34,557 bases of DNA from a virus. The notes beneath the pieces are model-generated. The model had not been told where the DNA came from. It saw nothing but the letters and a program-made list of their open reading frames with translations, and made no database searches. Location: positions 1 through 34,557 of IMG/VR virus record IMGVR_UViG_3300047548_000357; one strand, written 5' to 3'. Below, one piece after another: positions 15,424 to 22,512 of this stretch (the stretch's first letter is position 1; each line of letters opens with the position of its first letter). The position numbers and the translations under genes were made by a program.

Positions 15424-15752
15424 TGCGTATTCCTATCTATATTCCTATTAGACGCTTCCTGTGAGCGCCAGACGTCGATCCTGGCTTGTGCCGCTACCAG
15501 CATCCACCTTAGTCTTTCGGCTTCTTCTACAGCCTGTTTAAGACCATCCAAAACTTCAAGGTACTCAGGATGACTATAGGCGAATGATTCCTTGTCCGCA
15601 ATTGTATTTCCCAATGCGTTCTGGAAAATGATAGCTTTCTTTGATTTCCTGTATTCTGATAAAAATGTGACATTAGCCTTGGCTTTAGCGTAGGCTTCAG
15701 CGTTTTTAATCATGTAAAGGATTGCTTCGTTAGGGTCTATTTGTTTTGTCAT
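15420..15752 (-). CDS. Conserved phage coiled-coil protein (unknown)
   Basis: 110 aa. NAEAYAKAKANVTFLSEYRKSKKAIIF, then SYAYSHPEYLEVL-like and RLRWMLVAAQARIDVWRSQEASNR match a small protein often found near replication/recombination genes of phages. It is strongly helical. The start at 15752 lacks a clear SD. It follows the 15753-16144 RNA-rich interval and is the first gene of the block running to the methyltransferase. Confidence 0.75.
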   Translation of the reverse strand: MTKQIDPNEAILYMIKNAEAYAKAKANVTFLSEYRKSKKAIIFQNALGNTIADKESFAYSHPEYLEVLDGLKQAVEEAERLRWMLVAAQARIDVWRSQEASNRNIDRNTQ

Positions 15753-15819
15753 TGCAATAATATTTCATTGGACAATAGGACAGGACGAGAGGTTGATCTA
15801 TACCTACTTCTCGCACTAG

Positions 15820-15948
15820 CTAATCACTCTCGTGGTTACATTCAATTTCCAGGGCGACCGTATCGTGGCCCATCCGTATATCAACCTTGCTGCCCTGTTC
15901 CTGAGATACCTGTAACGAGTTCTCGCGCCGTCCTGTCACATAGCGCAT
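15820..15948 (-). CDS. Small ORF (42 aa) in the RNA-rich interval
   Basis: ATG at 15948 to TAG at 15820 encodes 42 residues starting MRYVTGRRENSLQ and containing KVDIRMGHDTVALEIECN. The residue mix and codon use look protein-like, unlike the other frames, and it fills the only long gap in the leftward operon. SD support is weak (AAGAAAA 6-12 nt upstream). Two nested inverted repeats overlap it (15779-15787 with 15929-15937, and 15790-15804 with 15876-15887). Function unknown. Confidence 0.5.
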   Translation of the reverse strand: MRYVTGRRENSLQVSQEQGSKVDIRMGHDTVALEIECNHESD

Positions 15949-16023
15949 TCGGTTTTCTTGATGGCAGTCCCGAACTTGGACTCACTGCTAACGCGATCAG
16001 TACGGTCTATATGTACAGGCAAT

Positions 16024-16129
16024 AAAAAAGCCCTCTAGGTTTGGCTCTCTCCTGTGTGGGCAGGTTTTCTGGTGTGCGCCAGAATTGAGAACCAAAGCTA
16101 AAGGGCTTGCATCTATACCCACATATAGA
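16024..16129 (-). terminator. Branched RNA element 1: three-way junction with U-run and kissing loop
   Basis: Leftward RNA. P1 pairs 16108-16087 with 16049-16028 over 22 positions (19 Watson-Crick, 2 G-U, 1 C-C mismatch) and ends in six U (16029-16024). Inside, P2 is TTCTGG/CCAGAA with loop CGCACA (16084-16067) and P3 is CCTG/CAGG with loop CCCACA (16064-16051). Just upstream a 6-bp hairpin (16129-16112) has loop TGTGGG, exactly complementary to the P3 loop and 5 of 6 to the P2 loop. It lies between the replication block and the next gene block. Intrinsic terminator or antitermination switch is inferred. Confidence 0.75.
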
Positions 16130-16144
16130 CAGAAAAATTATAGA

Positions 16145-16564
16145 TCACATAGCTGCATTTGCAAAGACATATTCGATTGATTTTGCAAATTGCTTTCTCG
16201 TTAGTGATAGTTGTAAGTTATCAGTCTCAGTTAAAGCCTCGCCAATGTCTCGATAGTCATCGCCAGTCAACGCCCAACGTCCAGACTTTTTATGGCGCTC
16301 TCTGACGTTAATAACAGCATCTAGCCCACGGCGGAATACATCCATCTCAAGATCGTTCTGCCAAGCTGCCGTTAGTCCTACGTTCAATCTGGCCGTTATC
16401 GTGTGCCAGGATTGGTCGTCTGCGATGCCTTCACGAAACTTCATTAGCTCCATGTGTGGAGTCAGCTGAAGCGCAGTTTCTTCATCAGCGCCATGCCGGA
16501 TAGTCAGAGGGATACCGGCCCTGACTTTTGTTTGCTTCTTTCTCGGCTTTTTACTTGATGGCAT
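16145..16564 (-). CDS. Basic phage protein at the Q-like position (unknown)
   Basis: 139 aa from ATG at 16564 (an upstream TTG gives three more residues). The N-terminus is highly basic (MPSSKKPRKKQTKVRAG); the rest is helical, with ALTGDDYRDIGEALTETDNLQLSLTRKQFAKSIEY resembling a recurring phage protein. It is the last gene of the replication block and its stop lies about 16 nt before branched RNA element 1, where lambdoid phages keep the Q antiterminator. No Q family motif is recognised; an RNA- or DNA-binding regulatory role is inferred from charge and place. Confidence 0.7.
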   Translation of the reverse strand: MPSSKKPRKKQTKVRAGIPLTIRHGADEETALQLTPHMELMKFREGIADDQSWHTITARLNVGLTAAWQNDLEMDVFRRGLDAVINVRERHKKSGRWALTGDDYRDIGEALTETDNLQLSLTRKQFAKSIEYVFANAAM

Positions 16565-16835
16565 TTTTAACAACCTCTAAAGCCTCTTTTAAATTACGAA
16601 CGACAGCTACTTGCCCTAACCAGTCCGCATGCCAGACGATTTGCTGCGATGTAAGCTTTCCGTCGCCTTCTTTAATCTCCAGTAGCAGGTTGTAACGACG
16701 AAGCTGATTCTTTGCGCCGACCAAAATATCCGGGCAACCTTGACCTACTTTGTGTAAATGCTGGACTGTGTATCCGGCATTACGAAGGCCATGTACGATT
16801 TCCCGCTGGTTTGTGTCTACTCTGTACGCTCTCAT
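16551..16835 (-). CDS. VRR-NUC domain nuclease
   Basis: 94 aa from ATG at 16835, overlapping the upstream stop as ATGA. A PD-(D/E)XK VRR-NUC core is visible: GQGCPDILVGAKN (catalytic D), then LLLEIKEGDGKLTSQQIVWH with the E-x-K pair, then W...GQVAVVRN. Stand-alone VRR-NUC proteins of about 90-110 aa in phages are predicted structure-specific nucleases, possibly Holliday-junction or flap processing in replication and recombination. It lies in the replication cluster. Confidence 0.88.
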   Translation of the reverse strand: MRAYRVDTNQREIVHGLRNAGYTVQHLHKVGQGCPDILVGAKNQLRRYNLLLEIKEGDGKLTSQQIVWHADWLGQVAVVRNLKEALEVVKNAIK

Positions 16836-17239
16836 TTCACGATTTTCCATTGATTTGATGCTCTATTCTTGTCGTTACGAATTGCTTCAGCCAGCAACTT
16901 TGTTTTGCGCCTAGCTAAATTTGAATCTCTTTTCAAAGCGGCTCGCTCTGTGTCCCATTTTCTATTTGCTTTGCCAAACTCAATATTTGCCATCCAATCA
17001 AGCGTTTCAACGTCTTTTGATGAATCTGTGTCCCATAGCCTGTCAGCTAAAATTTTCATATGCCGCCCGACCATTTCTTGAACTCTGCCAGGCCAAAAAA
17101 TACATTCAGGCACTCTTTTCAGTTCATTGCAGTCAAGCATTATTCCGTAAGGTTTTAGCCATCGCTCTAAATCAGTCATCCTTACGTCTTTGCGAAAAGC
17201 TTTGATAAGCATTGCGTCATATATTCGCTGTTTATTCAC
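16832..17239 (-). CDS. Basic helical replication-cluster protein (unknown)
   Basis: 135 aa with GTG start at 17239, preceded by GGGAG at 6 nt. The protein is rich in Lys and Arg, especially in the last 45 residues (ERAALKRDSNLARRKTKLLAEAIRNDKNRA). The middle has LKPYGIMLDCNELKRVPECIFWPGRVQEM. No enzyme motif is recognised. It may bind nucleic acid, given charge and position between helicase-side genes and the nuclease. Confidence 0.65.
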   Translation of the reverse strand: MNKQRIYDAMLIKAFRKDVRMTDLERWLKPYGIMLDCNELKRVPECIFWPGRVQEMVGRHMKILADRLWDTDSSKDVETLDWMANIEFGKANRKWDTERAALKRDSNLARRKTKLLAEAIRNDKNRASNQWKIVK

Positions 17240-17441
17240 GCCAATCTCCCTTTGCGCCTCTGTTTCCCTTAGACCACTGATCCTTGCAATCTTCTTCTAA
17301 CCTGTCGGCAGATTCATCTCCGCGCTTTCGTCTTACGTCAGATATATAGTTGATTGCTACGTTCCTATCTGCTGTGCGCCATTGCAAAACATAGCGCACT
17401 TCACATTGGTGGCGATATTCTTCGCTATTTGTATCAATCAC
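17232..17441 (-). CDS. DUF7696-like small protein
   Basis: 69 aa with GTG start (GTGA overlaps the helicase stop). MIDTNSEEYRHQCEVRYVLQW, then RRKRGDESADRLEEDCKDQW and NRGAKGDWRE, follows the compact pattern of a small phage protein family (S-E-E-(F/Y)-R-H-x-C-E-V-R ... K-R-G ... A-x-R-L ... Q-W) near replication genes. Function unknown; it is not an enzyme by sequence. Confidence 0.75.
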   Translation of the reverse strand: MIDTNSEEYRHQCEVRYVLQWRTADRNVAINYISDVRRKRGDESADRLEEDCKDQWSKGNRGAKGDWRE

Positions 17442-18433
17442 AACCGGCCAACGTTATCAAAGTCTTGCGGCAAAGAACCAAGTTTCTCGACAAACTGCTG
17501 GCTGCTGGCGTGATACCAAAGTGAATACCACTCCTGGGATTCTCCGTTCCTCTGCTTCTCGCACATCAGGTAAGCATCCGGCATGGATTCATCTACCTGC
17601 TCACCCATATTCCGCAGGTTTTCCTTCTTCTTGTTGCGCCACATCAAAAACACGTTATCAACCTGATCTGAGATAGATCCTGAACCTTTCAGATCGTTCT
17701 TATTAGGCTGCTGTTCCTCGTTCACCAGCTTGCGGATGTGGTGAACCAGATGGATGTGAACGTTATGGTCACGCGCTAATGCGGTCAGTTCGTCAATAAA
17801 GTTCTTCTGACCGTTGAAATCATCCTCACCCTTAACGCACTTCATCAGCGAGTCGATAAAAATATGCTGTACACCTAACTCAACGGCACAGTACCTAGCC
17901 ATCGCTATGACTTTATCCGCTGAAGTTGTCCCCTGTTGGTCGTAAATGTACATCTTGTCTGACAGAAACTTATCCATCCTGCCAACAAGTTTTTCAATGT
18001 AAGACTTCCTGTCATGCGTCATTGGTGAATCAACAAACTCACCTGCAAACTGGCGCATCATCCTCTCTAACGTACGCTCCGGCTTCATCTCAAAAGAAGC
18101 AATGCAAACGGTCTGCCCCTGCTTCACCAGGTTTAGCGCAATCTGACCAGTAATCAGCGATTTGCCGCCACCATTACCGCCAGCATAGACCGTTACTTCT
18201 CCTGCCCGATACGCAAAACCACCGTGAGTTTTCGGCCACGGCAAAGTGATTTGATGATTAGCTGCCTCAGAAAGATAGTTTTCCTTAATCGTTTCCAGCC
18301 AATCAATAGCTTTCTTTACTCTAATCGTTACGTCATTGGCATGAAGGTATTTCTCTACGTCAATAGAGTCTGACTTAATAATCCGCGCTTTTCTGGCGGC
18401 ATCTAGGTCTAATGCCCTTTCGTAAACACTCAT
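17438..18433 (-). CDS. DnaB-like replicative helicase (RecA-fold)
   Basis: 331 aa. RecA-like ATPase: Walker A GGNGGGKS at 85-92, Walker B HIFIDSL at 190-196, H-motif HLVHHIRK near 228-235 and a conserved GSGSISDQVDNVF segment that in this family carries subunit-contact residues. It lacks the N-terminal DnaB domain, so it is a short phage helicase like those of small podoviruses. It probably unwinds the fork 5' to 3' as a hexamer. The CHC2 protein is encoded just upstream with ATGA overlap, and the loader-like gene before that. Confidence 0.92.
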   Translation of the reverse strand: MSVYERALDLDAARKARIIKSDSIDVEKYLHANDVTIRVKKAIDWLETIKENYLSEAANHQITLPWPKTHGGFAYRAGEVTVYAGGNGGGKSLITGQIALNLVKQGQTVCIASFEMKPERTLERMMRQFAGEFVDSPMTHDRKSYIEKLVGRMDKFLSDKMYIYDQQGTTSADKVIAMARYCAVELGVQHIFIDSLMKCVKGEDDFNGQKNFIDELTALARDHNVHIHLVHHIRKLVNEEQQPNKNDLKGSGSISDQVDNVFLMWRNKKKENLRNMGEQVDESMPDAYLMCEKQRNGESQEWYSLWYHASSQQFVEKLGSLPQDFDNVGRL

Positions 18434-18852
18434 TGCATATACCCCGCCGCTTCGTTGATACGTTCAAAAGCCGTTTTAAGGCGTTTTCTATCAGCATCTG
18501 ATACTTGCCTACCTTCTGCTATATCAAACGCCACCAGCGACGTTACAATAGCCTCAAAATGGATAATTTTCAGCAAGTCAGCAGCATAGAACGGCTTACG
18601 CTCTGATTTCAGCCCGTGGATACCTGGTTTTAAAAGATCGTCTTTAGGAAACAGATCAGTCATGTCCATGCCTACGGCTGAAACAACTTCGTAGGCAGAA
18701 CATCCAGCAAAACACTTAAGCAGGATTCGACCATCATCAAGTTGCGTGATAGCCAGGCTAGGGCTTTTGTCGCCGTGAGCAGGACAGCAAGCAGTCCAAC
18801 GGCCTTTTGCGCCTTTGACTTTCTCTAGGCGGTTTAGAAGATTTCCGATCAT
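18430..18852 (-). CDS. CHC2 zinc-finger primase-like protein
   Basis: 140 aa. RWTACCPAHGDKSPSLAITQLDDGRILLKCFAGCS shows the primase zinc-binding motif C-P-x-H ... C-x3-C (C23, H26, C47, C51). No TOPRIM catalytic domain follows, only about 80 helical residues, so it is either a template-recognition subunit that works with a host primase or an accessory of the helicase. Start and stop overlap neighbours by 4 nt. It is part of the replication operon. Confidence 0.9.
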   Translation of the reverse strand: MIGNLLNRLEKVKGAKGRWTACCPAHGDKSPSLAITQLDDGRILLKCFAGCSAYEVVSAVGMDMTDLFPKDDLLKPGIHGLKSERKPFYAADLLKIIHFEAIVTSLVAFDIAEGRQVSDADRKRLKTAFERINEAAGYMQ

Positions 18853-19472
18853 ATGACGCGCCTTCCTAGTGAGTTTATGTTAGTGACAGTCTCATTCTTT
18901 GGCTCGTAAACATCCTGCCAAGAATGCAATATGCTGTTTTGCAAAGGTATCGAAGGATTGATGCCTTTCAACTTCATCTTTTCCAACTTAGAAATTACGA
19001 TCTTTGCTGCACGATCAGTCATAGGTTTGCCTATCTTCTTCCTCATCGCAACAAAATCTTTCCAATCAGTTTTGTCTAACCAATCAGGTATTTCTATTAA
19101 CGTAAGTTTCTTCTCTTTCTCTGTCTCTCTCTCTCCCTCTCTCTCTGTCTCTGGGATAGCAACTTGATAGCAAGGTGCTAGCATAGTGCTAGCATCAATA
19201 AAAAAGCCATTATCAATCAATGGCTTAAGTCCAGCATCTATGTCTTTGCTAGCAATATGCAAGCGGAATGCTAGCTCGTCGCTAGCAGCATCAAAACTGC
19301 CGTCTTTTGACTCACTTGCAAGCAACCAAAGTAACGGAGCAATTGCTTTACTTGCAATAGGCAAACTAGCAAAAATACGGTCATTTAGCAGGTCACGATG
19401 CAGCTTTATCCACGGTGGGCAACGGTCTTTATAGTGCTGGAACTTGTCCCAATTCTTAGGCTTCAGGATCAT
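18849..19472 (-). CDS. Replication initiator/helicase-loader-like protein
   Basis: 207 aa. The beginning WIKLHRDLLNDRIFASLPIASKAIAPLLWLLASE resembles the winged-helix start of phage O-type initiators. The middle holds a charged linker (ETEREGERETEKEKK) and the C-terminal part has a helical DKTDWKDFVAMRKKIGKPMTDRAAK domain typical of loaders. Two four-unit 11-bp repeat arrays lie inside this gene (19155-19291), as lambda's origin lies in O, and a pyrimidine tract encodes the linker. The ATG overlaps the previous gene by 17 nt, with GGGGG as SD. Confidence 0.82.
   Translation of the reverse strand: MILKPKNWDKFQHYKDRCPPWIKLHRDLLNDRIFASLPIASKAIAPLLWLLASESKDGSFDAASDELAFRLHIASKDIDAGLKPLIDNGFFIDASTMLAPCYQVAIPETEREGERETEKEKKLTLIEIPDWLDKTDWKDFVAMRKKIGKPMTDRAAKIVISKLEKMKLKGINPSIPLQNSILHSWQDVYEPKNETVTNINSLGRRVI
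19107..19291. other. Putative replication origin: pyrimidine tract, iterons, hairpin, iterons
   Basis: Plus-strand order: 46-nt pyrimidine tract with only two G (19107-19152); four 11-bp repeats at 19155, 19166, 19177 and 19188 (GATAGCAACTT, GATAGCAAGGT, GCTAGCATAGT, GCTAGCATCAA); perfect 8-bp hairpin at 19204-19226; four more 11-bp repeats at 19248, 19259, 19270 and 19281 (GCTAGCAATAT, GCAAGCGGAAT, GCTAGCTCGTC, GCTAGCAGCAT). A degenerate pair follows at 19354 and 19365. Eleven is out of codon phase and equals about one helical turn, as for protein-bound iterons. Location in an initiator-like gene supports an origin; not demonstrated. Confidence 0.7.
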
Positions 19473-19665
19473 TTTCAGCCCCCATGTTCCACGCAGAATC
19501 TATCTCATCTTGATTCCTAAAAAACCAATCTTCAATTGCTCTAAATTGCTCTGGTGTTAAAAAAATAGTAACAATGTCTTTTTTTGATTGATCGTATTGG
19601 TCAATAAAAATTCTTCCAGTTTTTTGATAGCCAATTGAAACTTCTTGAGAACCTTTAATTTTCAT
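19456..19665 (-). CDS. Small phage protein, first gene after branched RNA element 2
   Basis: 69 aa: MKIKGSQEVSIGYQKTGRIFIDQYDQ, then IVTIFLTPEQFRAIEDWFFRNQDEIDSAWN. Proteins with this I.Y...GRI.I.Q.D....D.V...LTPEQF..I..W pattern recur in phage replication regions; function unknown. The RBS GGAA lies just downstream of the U-run of RNA element 2, so that RNA could control this gene and everything behind it. Confidence 0.75.
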   Translation of the reverse strand: MKIKGSQEVSIGYQKTGRIFIDQYDQSKKDIVTIFLTPEQFRAIEDWFFRNQDEIDSAWNMGAENDPEA

Positions 19666-19678
19666 AGCTTTTCCAAAT

Positions 19679-19786
19679 AAAAAAAGCCCTAGGAGAGACT
19701 CTCACCGCAAGCGGCGTTGGCAGACCAGTGGGTAACTGGCAGAGTCCCTTCTAGGGCTTACCCATAAACGTGCTGCCAAGCACGTT
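19679..19786 (-). terminator. Branched RNA element 2: three-way junction with U-run and pseudoknot
   Basis: Leftward RNA. P1 pairs 19759-19741 with 19702-19684 over 19 positions (17 Watson-Crick, 1 G-U, 1 A-C mismatch), followed by seven U (19685-19679). P2 is CCAG(T)/(A)CTGG with loop TTACCCA (19739-19725) and P3 is CCG-CTTG-CGG, a stable CUUG-type tetraloop (19714-19705). The seven bases TGGGTAA (19764-19758) directly before P1 are fully complementary to the P2 loop. An 8-bp hairpin (19786-19767) lies upstream. It sits in the leader of the replication operon. Architecture matches element 1 at 16024-16129. Confidence 0.75.
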
Positions 19787-19790
19787 ACTA

Positions 19791-19961
19791 CTATATCGTA
19801 ACGCCTCGCTGCTGGCAAATCCTGCATACTGTACTGTTTACAAACTGACTGCCAGATCTGGACCGCTTGCAGCCCTGACAATATTGCAGCTTAAAGTTAT
19901 AGCTGGTCGCTCCAGACGATTGGGACGTTGCTGGCAAGGACTTTGAAGTGTTTTTTTTCAA
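19791..19961 (-). CDS. Small zinc-ribbon protein with TTG start
   Basis: 56 aa with a C-x2-C-x14-C-x2-C knuckle (C28, C31, C46, C49; segments YCQGCKRS and VCRICQQRG). No ATG exists in the frame; TTG at 19961 has AGAGG at 8 nt upstream. The N-terminal 20 residues overlap the 57-aa gene in another frame for 65 nt, but the zinc core lies after that gene's stop. The Cys spacing makes chance unlikely. Small zinc proteins in early leaders often bind DNA or RNA polymerase; no specific role can be stated. Confidence 0.55.
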   Translation of the reverse strand: MKKNTSKSLPATSQSSGATSYNFKLQYCQGCKRSRSGSQFVNSTVCRICQQRGVTI

Positions 19962-20070
19962 TTGGCTGACCTCTTGGTGATTCGGTTGGATAAGTAAGTT
20001 TCAGCGGCTTGAACCAGTCTTGCTCTTGCGTTTCCTTTTGTAGCCGCTTTAGCGTTTCTTCGTATTTCAT
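19897..20070 (-). CDS. Small leader-operon protein (unknown, 57 aa)
   Basis: Starts MKYEETLKRLQKETQEQDWF at 20070, with GGAG 6-7 nt upstream and ATGA overlap with the preceding 29-aa peptide. The longer open frame reaching 20313 runs through the operator region and is not credible as a start. The protein has a charged N-terminal helix, then a KLTYPTESPRGQPIEKKHF linker and a C-terminal VLASNVPIVWSD. Family not recognised. Confidence 0.6.
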   Translation of the reverse strand: MKYEETLKRLQKETQEQDWFKPLKLTYPTESPRGQPIEKKHFKVLASNVPIVWSDQL

Positions 20071-20156
20071 GAGTGTCTCCATAGAATCGCAGCAACCAGG
20101 ATGAACCCAATAGCCGCATATAGTTCGAATACATCTATAAATGTCCAAATGTCCAT
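20067..20156 (-). CDS. 29-aa single-span membrane peptide
   Basis: MDIWTFIDVFELYAAIGFI followed by LVAAILWRHS: one transmembrane helix with a short basic tail. ATG at 20156 is preferred over 20162 because GAAGGTG lies exactly 6 nt upstream. It ends with ATGA into the next gene. It is the first ORF of the leftward leader. A role in superinfection exclusion or membrane signalling is conceivable but not supported beyond topology. Confidence 0.55.
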   Translation of the reverse strand: MDIWTFIDVFELYAAIGFILVAAILWRHS

Positions 20157-20335
20157 TGTCATCACCTTCAAAAGCCGCGTCAACTGGCGCAAGGAAACAG
20201 TAGGCCAACGACAAGAAACTTGCAAATAGAAAATTTCTATAGAAATTGCTTTTGTTATAGAAATATTTTCGTTTGCAAAGTTTTTCAGCTGGACTATGAT
20301 TCTTCCATCGCATCAGCGATTACTAGGAGATGAAT
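20157..20335. promoter_or_regulatory. Divergent control region with palindromic operator
   Basis: A perfect 16-bp palindrome AATTTCTATAGAAATT lies at 20232-20247. A related imperfect site in opposite orientation lies at 20255-20270. These are flanked by TTTGCAA-containing repeats at 20219-20225 and 20272-20279, each followed by GTTT or AGTTT reading outward. The arrangement suggests a regulator, perhaps the Cro-like protein encoded at 22297, controlling both outward transcripts. A leftward promoter is likely here, but its -10 box (TACTGT, 17 bp from TTGCAA) is weak. Confidence 0.6.
20273..20300 (+). promoter_or_regulatory. Rightward early promoter
   Basis: A sigma70-like pair: TTGCAA at 20273-20278 and TATGAT at 20295-20300 with a 16-bp spacer. 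Transcription would begin near 20307, just before the RBS AGGAG at 20325 of the first rightward gene. The palindromic operator lies immediately upstream. Confidence 0.6.
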
Positions 20336-20659
20336 ATGAACCGCAAGATGGAAATTGAAGATGAACTGTTCACCAGCCTGCTTAATGGCGATGTATATGA
20401 CTTTACGGATCGCATCCCTAAGCAACTTGTATCAGACGAACTAGCAGAACTGCTTTATACCTGGAGTGTGTTCAAAGACTCGCCAAGCTTTAACGGATCT
20501 TTTACCCGTCACGTTCAATCAATGTGCGCTCGTATTGCAGAGCATGTCGTTAAGATTGAGGGCTTAGGTAGTGATTACGTTGATGAGGAGGGCAACTGGC
20601 TGGAGGAATGCGACCGTTACTATGACGAGAAAAAAGATCGTCAAGCGGAGGGCATGTAA
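20336..20659 (+). CDS. First rightward early gene (unknown)
   Basis: 107 aa from ATG at 20336, chosen because AGGAG ends 6 nt before it while the upstream ATG at 20330 touches the SD. Acidic and helical: MNRKMEIEDELFTSLLNGD, SDELAELLYTWSVFKDS, ending in charged YDEKKDRQAEGM. Acidic early proteins of this kind often counter host proteins, but no family is recognised. The stop overlaps the next start (TAATG). Confidence 0.7.
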   Translation: MNRKMEIEDELFTSLLNGDVYDFTDRIPKQLVSDELAELLYTWSVFKDSPSFNGSFTRHVQSMCARIAEHVVKIEGLGSDYVDEEGNWLEECDRYYDEKKDRQAEGM

Positions 20660-20760
20660 TGTTTAACGCTAACGACAAATTGGCTCAATTTTTAGCCAAA
20701 CACCCTAACGCTGCATTGATTGTTTTGTTTGCTTTGATTGTTTTGTCATCCTATGAATAA
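20659..20760 (+). CDS. 33-aa single-span membrane peptide
   Basis: MFNANDKLAQFLAKHPNAAL followed by IVLFALIVLSSYE: a short soluble N-terminus then one hydrophobic helix. It begins on the previous stop (TAATG) and overlaps the next ORF by 8 nt. The tight packing supports real translation. Membrane localisation is predicted; role unknown. Confidence 0.6.
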   Translation: MFNANDKLAQFLAKHPNAALIVLFALIVLSSYE

Positions 20761-21862: not shown

Positions 21863-22018
21863 ATGCTTAAATTGTTGATTGGATCAATGTTGGCCGGAGT
21901 CGCTACGCTGGCATGGGCGCAACAATGCTCCACGCATACATATATGTATAACGGCAAAATGGTTGTTTGCACTACCTGTTGTTATTCCGGAGGTAATTGC
22001 AACACAACCTGTTTTTGA
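21863..22018 (+). CDS. Secreted Cys-rich peptide (51 aa)
   Basis: A signal peptide (MLKLLIGSMLAGVATLAWA with AWA cleavage before QQC) is followed by a 32-residue mature part holding six cysteines (C22, C36, C39, C40, C46, C50), e.g. CTTCCYSGGNC. GGAG 9 nt upstream is the SD. Periplasmic export with up to three disulfides is predicted. Small exported C-rich phage proteins of this style recur but have no known function. The ORF ends TGT TTT TGA, and the +1 frame continues open to 22124. Confidence 0.75.
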   Translation: MLKLLIGSMLAGVATLAWAQQCSTHTYMYNGKMVVCTTCCYSGGNCNTTCF

Positions 22019-22124
22019 TCAGCGCCGCCTAGCCGATAGTGGCGGTAATAACATCGGCATTAGCTGGCAAATCTCCCATGCTGAAGCTAATGACACCCTG
22101 GAAAGACAGGGAAAATACAAATGA
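22019..22124 (+). other. Open +1 frame behind the Cys-rich peptide (possible frameshift extension)
   Basis: Directly after the TGA, the +1 frame encodes a protein-like stretch (DQRRLADSGGNNIGISWQIS, then HAEANDTLERQGKYK) ending at 22124. That frame has no ATG; its only upstream start is TTG at 21879. The junction TTT TGA allows tRNA-Phe to re-pair in +1 (UUUUUGA), as in the RF2 gene. Alternatives: an indel in the T5 run, or a separate overlapping gene with a non-ATG start. Confidence 0.35.
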
Positions 22125-22193
22125 TCTAGCCAAGAGCGACAGGTACATTTTGTAACCGGCTATGTGTGGACTGCAACTAGATCATTTTTATTT
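22119..22193 (+). terminator. Terminator-like long hairpin with internal structure
   Basis: A perfect 11-bp stem AAATGATCTAG/CTAGATCATTT (22119-22129 with 22177-22187) closes a 47-nt loop that can fold further (TAGCC with GGCTA, and a GGTAC/GTAACC hairpin), followed by a U-rich tract TTTTTATTT. It lies just before the tRNA gene and could stop early rightward transcription or release the tRNA transcript. Confidence 0.6.
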
Positions 22194-22205
22194 GTAGTAA
22201 ACAAA

Positions 22206-22281
22206 GCTCTTTAAGCATTGCTGGCGATGCGCCTGACTTGTAATCAGGAGACAGTCGGTTCGATTCCGGCAAAGAGCGCCA
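22206..22281 (+). tRNA. tRNA-Thr (anticodon UGU)
   Basis: Acceptor stem GCTCTTT/AAAGAGC, discriminator G and encoded CCA (22279-22281). Anticodon arm CCTGA-CTTGTAA-TCAGG with anticodon TGT. T arm GTCGG-TTCGATT-CCGGC. D stem GCAT/ATGC and 5-nt variable loop AGACA. All parts of a canonical cloverleaf are present. It reads ACA (and by wobble ACG) threonine codons, which may be common in the Thr-rich fibers. Confidence 0.92.
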
Positions 22282-22296
22282 CAAACAGGAGTAACA

Positions 22297-22512
22297 ATGA
22301 AGCTTCTTGATTTTATTATTGGTAATTATGATCTAAAAAACGATAGACATCTGGCAGATAAACTTGATATATCTACGCCAGTTATCAGCCGTATTCGGAA
22401 CGGACATACAAAAGTCAGCGCAGAAATGATGATCCGTATTCACGAAGTTTTCGGAATTCCTATCGCTGAGATTAAATCGCTATGCAATATGCCATCGCAA
22501 TCTGCTCAATAG
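22297..22512 (+). CDS. Cro/CI-like XRE helix-turn-helix regulator
   Basis: 71 aa. Helix-turn-helix: DRHLADKLDISTPVISRIRNGHTKVSAEMMIRIHEVFG, with the recognition helix around STPVISRIRNG. Small size with one domain is Cro-like. AGGAG SD is clear. It is the only recognisable transcription regulator in the genome and a candidate to bind the palindromes at 20232-20270. Without an integrase, a lysogeny role is doubtful; it may switch early to later expression. Confidence 0.88.
   Translation: MKLLDFIIGNYDLKNDRHLADKLDISTPVISRIRNGHTKVSAEMMIRIHEVFGIPIAEIKSLCNMPSQSAQ

Follow-up and report, generated by a model that had tools for sequence, protein, structure and literature searches.

A candidate early-operon junction in uncultured phages: overlapping small genes, a promoter-like sequence at a stop codon and a pseudoknotted RNA

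Introduction

The control of polymerase by RNA and by proteins is a classic theme of phage early operons, and to our knowledge few natural systems beyond N/nut, Q and put have been worked out closely. Two of these are close enough to the present locus to be compared with it. HK022 put is a leader RNA near the early promoter which needs no dedicated protein factor to act on polymerase; putL is situated immediately behind its promoter, and put is about 70 nt long with two stem-loops (PMC9378689). In lambda and phage 21, a promoter, PR', is followed by the terminator tR', where readthrough is controlled by Q through a site between -35 and -10 (PMC6606751). Structured RNAs of the int-alpA family (Rfam RF02996) are also relevant here; no stated function was found for this family.

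The locus analyzed in this work carries a structured RNA, named R1, behind the gene of a small zinc-ribbon-like protein. Like put, R1 is a structured RNA close behind an early phage promoter, here a predicted one. However, with about 107 nt R1 is longer, it combines a three-way junction with two pseudoknots and ends in a U-tract, and in most cases it lies behind a zinc gene, so that the size and the two stem-loops given for put are not found in it. The resemblance to the Q system of lambda and 21 would be that of a protein acting at a phage promoter with a close terminator, but Q serves late rather than early genes and binds DNA with an HTH. Neither put nor Q is a family match to this junction. 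With int-alpA the relation is one of position: an int-alpA-like copy can fill the slot of R1 behind the zinc stop codon, whereas R1 of the window has no Rfam match at the site and has different pseudoknots, and the phage int-alpA-like copies are mostly below the gathering cut-off of the Rfam family and carry no U-tract. No published description of the zinc gene, promoter and RNA arrangement was recognized among open-licence papers.

Results

The region is read on the minus strand of a 34.6-kb IMG/VR virus record, the whole of which is called the window. Three small ORFs had been predicted here as a chain packed by overlaps, and all of them were found in place. The first is a 29-aa membrane microprotein with an ATG start (MDIWTF...WRHS, 20067..20156), the second a 57-aa ORF with a PRG motif (MKYEETL...WSDQL, including SPRGQPIE, 19897..20070), and the third a TTG-initiated, basic, zinc-ribbon-like protein of 56 aa (CQGCKRSRS..QF..CRIC, 19791..19961). 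The packing was also confirmed: the stop codon of the 29-aa ORF overlaps the 57-aa ORF in an ATGA, and the 57-aa and zinc ORFs share 65 nt in different frames. Behind the RNA, the first ORF encodes 69 aa without an assignment (19456..19665, minus strand), and a replication protein (O/DnaD-like, 18849-19472) and a primase-like protein (18430-18852) follow leftward.

The rightward side of the window carries an Erf-like annealing protein. A 33-aa hydrophobic peptide on the plus strand (20659-20760) lies directly 3' of the first rightward gene and may mirror the membrane peptide on the leftward side. Read by eye, a short Cys-rich, secreted-looking ORF (21863-22018, plus strand) is located upstream of a rightward stem, and a small HTH-like ORF (22298-22511, plus strand) could be the regulator of this phage. 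A tRNA-Thr (22206-22281) lies beside the stem region (22105-22200, plus strand). This stem, a long but weakly structured outer stem followed by a U-rich stretch, was rejected as a member of the R1 family (z -1.4, 6.5 bits).

When an annotated phage collection was searched with the R1 RNA (blastn) and the 57-aa ORF (tblastn), there was no match or only matches with E of at least 2; tblastn with the zinc protein of the window gave no relative there, and with that of locus L051 only hits with E of at least 2. No host or function could therefore be borrowed for the locus. In genome contigs, the exact R1 RNA pattern gave 0 matches and the zinc alignment 0 confirmed matches among 84 candidates, and the bacterial host was thus not found.

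The 29-aa peptide is hydrophobic, with a Kyte-Doolittle maximum of 2.41 over 17 residues. It does not belong to the conserved chain: a membrane ORF upstream was detected in only 18 of 100 distinct loci, and one of the 18 looks like a chance ORF. Among these 100 loci, peptides like that of the window were present only in L050 (on a contig shared with L002) and L120, and the L003/L014 group has a different membrane ORF of 60 aa. This distribution points to a local, lineage-restricted accessory.

Of 110 distinct loci, 106 have the PRG-motif ORF overlapping the zinc ORF at an identical frame offset, and in the remaining four the fetched DNA stops too early. For the part of this ORF preceding the overlap, the ratio of nonsynonymous to synonymous changes was 0.051 (57 distinct sequences); for the part inside it, the ratio was 0.139 (49 distinct sequences). 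Inside the overlap, constraint was seen on the PRG frame only and the first dozen zinc codons were free (ratio 2.07), indicating that the constrained zinc domain comprises roughly the last 40 residues. Three PRG ORFs gave no PHROG match. In many relatives (e.g., L015, L037, L054 and L085) the protein with the PRG motif at its tail is longer, about 90-110 aa, and its N-terminus looks winged-helix-like by eye. A 138-aa ATG frame, in which the 57-aa frame is extended upstream (19897-20313), was dropped; in the closest relative, L050, the first ATG corresponds to the inner one.

The zinc frame of the window offers two TTGs as its only ATG, GTG or TTG codons before the first Cys, and the first TTG has AGAGG 8 nt upstream. 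An in-frame TTG was present at the identical codon in 85 of 106 loci, a group that is defined by having this TTG and is to be read against a background of 87 of 230 Ile, Val and Leu codons (ATN/GTN/CTN) ending in T. GAGG was located exactly 8 nt before the TTG in 72 of these 85 loci, within the Arg-Gly codons of the PRG motif, which would therefore hold the Shine-Dalgarno sequence of the zinc ORF. For the 21 loci without TTG at that codon, the zinc start would be elsewhere.

Relatives of the zinc protein were confirmed by successive scans in 8, then 10, then 136 stretches of viral contigs. Because some zinc sets, among them that counted upstream of R1, were chosen by a cysteine regular expression, which builds in Cys invariance, a nine-member set found by tblastn and not selected on cysteines was used alone for residue conservation. 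C28, C31, C46 and C49 were invariant in 9/9 members, as were G30, K32-S36, Q39, F40 and R52, so a loss of cysteine conservation, which would have counted against the predicted gene, is contradicted. The nonsynonymous to synonymous ratio of a 27-codon zinc core was 0.081 in its own frame versus 2.36 and 1.32 in the other frames, although in some loci part of this core reaches into the upstream ORF or the -35. When the comparison was restricted to 12 codons that avoid both, the ratio was 0.127 in its own frame versus 1.35 and 2.37 (89 distinct sequences). These ratios support the TTG frame as a real gene with a conserved coding sequence, and the pattern of constraint implies that it is translated.

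The net charge of the zinc protein is +9 in the window and ranges from +6 to +10 over 37 representatives. The profile of phrog_38162 (PHROGs, no recorded function) matched 32 of these 37 family members at E<=0.1, with a best E of 2.4e-7; the window protein itself was a weak match (E 0.0024, 19.2 bits). Searches of Pfam, NCBIfam and PHROGs returned no significant family of known function. At E<=0.1 the 37 members together matched 19 Pfam families, none of them an HTH family, and no Q-family name appeared among the Pfam and NCBIfam matches. Matches to anti-TRAP, S14 and IleRS/FPG zinc fingers were at noise level and were discarded. In the structure model, which is of moderate confidence (pLDDT 72.9), one helix and two short strands surround the four cysteines, and the search for fold relatives gave none that was convincing (best E 0.61 in Foldseek, best Z 2.6 in VIA-align). 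Two conserved CxxC pairs, the trait of small zinc ribbons and treble clefs, are present. Compared with type Z ribosomal protein S14 and small zinc ribbons, the protein is likewise small and basic with paired CxxC motifs and has a weak profile similarity, but the values (E 0.0067 in NCBIfam and 0.38 against PDB sequences) were not significant and no fold match reached E<=0.001.

A predicted promoter, TTGCCA-17-TATAGT, is located in the 3' end of the zinc gene (19790..19818, minus strand); it agrees with the consensus at 10/12 positions and is conserved in relatives. The TTG of the -35 is supplied by the last Cys codon of the zinc gene, and the stop codon TAG lies within the -10. The register with the zinc stop is fixed: the -10 was TATAGT (94), TATGAT (16) or TATAAT (3) in 113 of 117 distinct zinc loci, and TTG stood at the -35 place with a 17-nt spacer in 112 of the 117. 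Among 92 loci with Val as the last zinc residue, 91 use GTA, versus 39 GTA among 195 Val codons in the 30 codons before. TATAGT was still present just downstream where the zinc stop is shifted (L040, L128 and L131). In 44 of 47 loci of the int-alpA type, the hexamer is followed by the GG of the RNA at a distance of 5-6 nt. A scan of positions 15600-20400 of the window placed this site and the one before a second RNA cassette at the top (both 10/12), but the number of sites overall was not in excess over shuffles (9 vs 7.7), so it is the GTA bias and the constant, conserved register, rather than the score, that carry the promoter claim. With a promoter-like sequence at the end of the zinc gene, the R1 RNA would start at or near the first base of the transcript, and the zinc gene appears to contain a promoter that belongs to the branched RNA. 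The idea that the zinc protein is made just before polymerase meets the RNA is thus an incomplete picture.

R1, the predicted RNA element 2, proved to be a real, covarying structured RNA (19679..19785, minus strand; z -4.55). It begins with a 5' hairpin (19768..19785), the loop of which (UUGGCA) pairs with UGCCAA of the junction at 19717-19722 (PK2). PK1 joins GGGU at 19760..19763 to ACCC of the hairpin-1 loop. An outer stem of 18 pairs, enclosing the three-way junction with hairpins 1 and 2 (19684..19759), is intrinsic-terminator-like and is followed by the U-tract. The covariance model matched the window R1 with 117.6 bits, the window copy being in the model. The 3' arm was found in 107 stretches of viral contigs; these 107 elements represent 57 distinct cores, and 69 distinct copies were aligned. 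PK1 was perfect in 69/69, with seven pairings (GGGU, GAGU, AGGC, AGGU, ACGU, UAGU and GGAU with the hairpin-1 loop). PK2 was perfect in 67/69, one of the others being saved by a wobble and one having a mismatch, so that 99.8% of its cells are paired; its 5' loop occurs as UUGGCG, UUGGCA, UUGACG or UUGGAG. Over the whole structure, 98.9% of cells are paired, and 18 pairs showed changes on both sides. The covariation score was 0.269, compared with 0.128 for shuffled alignments, none of which reached 0.269, and with 0.026-0.076 for slid versions. As counterpoints, 15 of the 18 pairs in the outer stem are invariant, and 30 of 500 shuffles attained the observed total of 38 further pair types. R1 had no Rfam match: at the gathering cut-off the window gave the tRNA only, and L002, L003 and L008 gave none for R1 at E<=2. 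A terminator scan (loops 3-8) did not list the outer stem and overall found fewer sites than shuffles (3 vs 4.6).

The neighborhood of R1 was then compared across loci. A zinc gene was located upstream of R1 in 89 of 105 loci and a small Cro/YdaS-like HTH gene in 14, counts that overstate independence because the contigs share ancestry and some are redundant. Five of the 14 HTH genes were classed by Pfam, the five representatives all matching P22_Cro or YdaS_toxin above the cut-off, and the others by likeness. The HTH gene takes the position of the zinc gene before the same promoter and RNA; P22 Cro and YdaS are HTH proteins and the zinc protein is a cysteine-pair protein, so the position is shared and the family is not. 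L021 has the PRG ORF without a zinc gene before R1, and L105 has the PRG ORF together with a decayed zinc frame. No zinc homologue was detected at E<=0.01 in the 16 contigs with R1 and no zinc gene, five of which are 55-59 kb long, which is a weak negative.

Downstream of the zinc gene, counted on the best 80 of the 136 stretches, R1 was present in 34 loci and an int-alpA-like RNA in 46, each of these 80 having one of the two structured RNAs directly behind. L009 too has an int-alpA-like RNA after its zinc gene. The int-alpA-like RNAs are sited directly after the zinc stop and have a loop-to-3'-tail pairing in several forms. Their leaders have no U-tract and run into the next gene; attenuation at a U-tract therefore cannot be a shared mechanism. 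When 14 such loci were scanned with the Rfam int-alpA model, L128 alone was above the cut-off (37.2 vs 35.8), five were below it and eight were not listed at E<=1. Further scans listed four of five loci, none above the cut-off, and placed 0 of 6 records above it, four with E<=0.01. Among eight first ORFs after either RNA, Pfam gave two DUF1376, one HNH, one sub-threshold ParB and four without a match, so replication genes behind the RNA are established for the window only. Taken by position, the zinc protein appears to occupy the slot of Cro at a swappable promoter-plus-RNA junction.

The same phage has a second, diverged R1-like cassette (16026-16135, minus strand; 27.7 bits, z -6.2) with a 5' hairpin, a three-way junction and a U-tract, and with TTGCAA-16-TATAAT as its promoter-like sequence. 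Viral contigs contained its 3' arm in 21 stretches, and several of these contigs carry zinc or R1 loci as well. In copies other than that of the window, a 10-nt pairing between the 5' loop and the junction covaries; in the window, a UGUGGG/CCCACA pair was read by eye. A different ORF (16145-16573) lies directly before this cassette.

Discussion

Sequence comparison gives the coding, the overlap, the conservation of the promoter-like sequence, the RNA pairing, the linkage and the swapping. On this basis we favor, with somewhat more confidence than doubt, a conserved early-operon junction of tailed phages in which the zinc protein would be a regulator and the RNA a cis-acting leader. A PRG-tailed small protein would be translated into the overlapping, TTG-started microprotein from a ribosome-binding site inside the PRG codons. 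The last Cys codon and the stop codon of the zinc gene would then provide the -35 and -10 of a second promoter, which, if active, would produce a transcript with the pseudoknotted RNA at its very 5' end. Directly behind this RNA come further genes, in the window a small ORF and then replication genes. Related phages keep the junction and swap the zinc gene for a Cro/YdaS-like regulator, or R1 for an int-alpA-like RNA.

The zinc microprotein is most likely a small nucleic-acid-binding early regulator; this best guess follows from its Cro/YdaS position, its charge and its cysteine pairs, through which it presumably binds zinc. We infer, along with the direction of regulation, that it acts at the junction and that the RNA sets the amount of transcription reaching the genes behind.

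A less probable reading, which nevertheless has real weight, is that the RNA is self-contained, as a trans-acting small RNA or a put-like leader that uses no protein, and that the zinc gene merely precedes it and acts, for example, on the host. The promoter-like sequence, the stable fold and the U-tract are consistent with this, as is the same RNA behind Cro/YdaS genes, and HK022 put, whose putL lies just behind its promoter, works without a dedicated protein factor (PMC9378689). It fits poorly, however, with a structured RNA of differing type at the same place in each of the best 80 of 136 zinc loci.

The original prediction saw in the zinc protein a cofactor binding RNA or polymerase. In its strict form, the microprotein would be dedicated to the nascent R1 RNA or to the polymerase transcribing it and would switch termination at the U-tract; we consider this unlikely, slightly more so than a self-contained RNA. 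A basic protein with paired CxxC motifs, tightly linked to a structured RNA (89/105 R1 loci) that ends in a terminator-like stem and a U-tract directly before the next gene, would suit such a role, and to this extent the cofactor idea stands. Its dedication to R1 does not: R1 lacks the zinc gene in 16 of 105 loci, the zinc gene precedes an int-alpA-like RNA without a U-tract in 46 of 80, and the second R1-like cassette in the same phage is preceded by a different ORF (16145-16573). Since R1 occurs with or without the zinc protein, a cofactor dedicated to it is less likely.

It is extremely improbable that the ORFs are chance open frames whose conservation stems only from the promoter, the RNA and the gene that overlaps them. 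Both ends of the zinc frame are indeed under constraint from the overlap and the promoter, but the clear 12-codon stretch gives 0.127 in this frame and more than 1 in the others, and no cysteine varies in the set assembled without regard to them.

The favored reading, a regulator gene and a cis leader joined at one junction, is notable for its density. In one short stretch, four signals appear to share their bases: a pair of proteins encoded in overlapping frames, a ribosome-binding site that lies within codons, and a promoter-like sequence with a stop codon in its -10. This stretch ends in an RNA with two covarying pseudoknots and without an Rfam match. The arrangement is conserved in a group of uncultured phages, and the exchange of the protein or the RNA among related phages at a constant junction makes each part separately testable. 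The int-alpA RNA family is likewise placed at a predicted phage promoter, where it may be tested. Quite tentatively, the junction might even represent an undescribed phage transcription-control system, in which a zinc microprotein and a pseudoknotted leader RNA, joined by a promoter nested in a stop codon, would decide polymerase entry into early genes, and in which the protein would serve two or more dissimilar RNA folds and would also act in trans on other cassettes of the genome such as that at 16026-16135.
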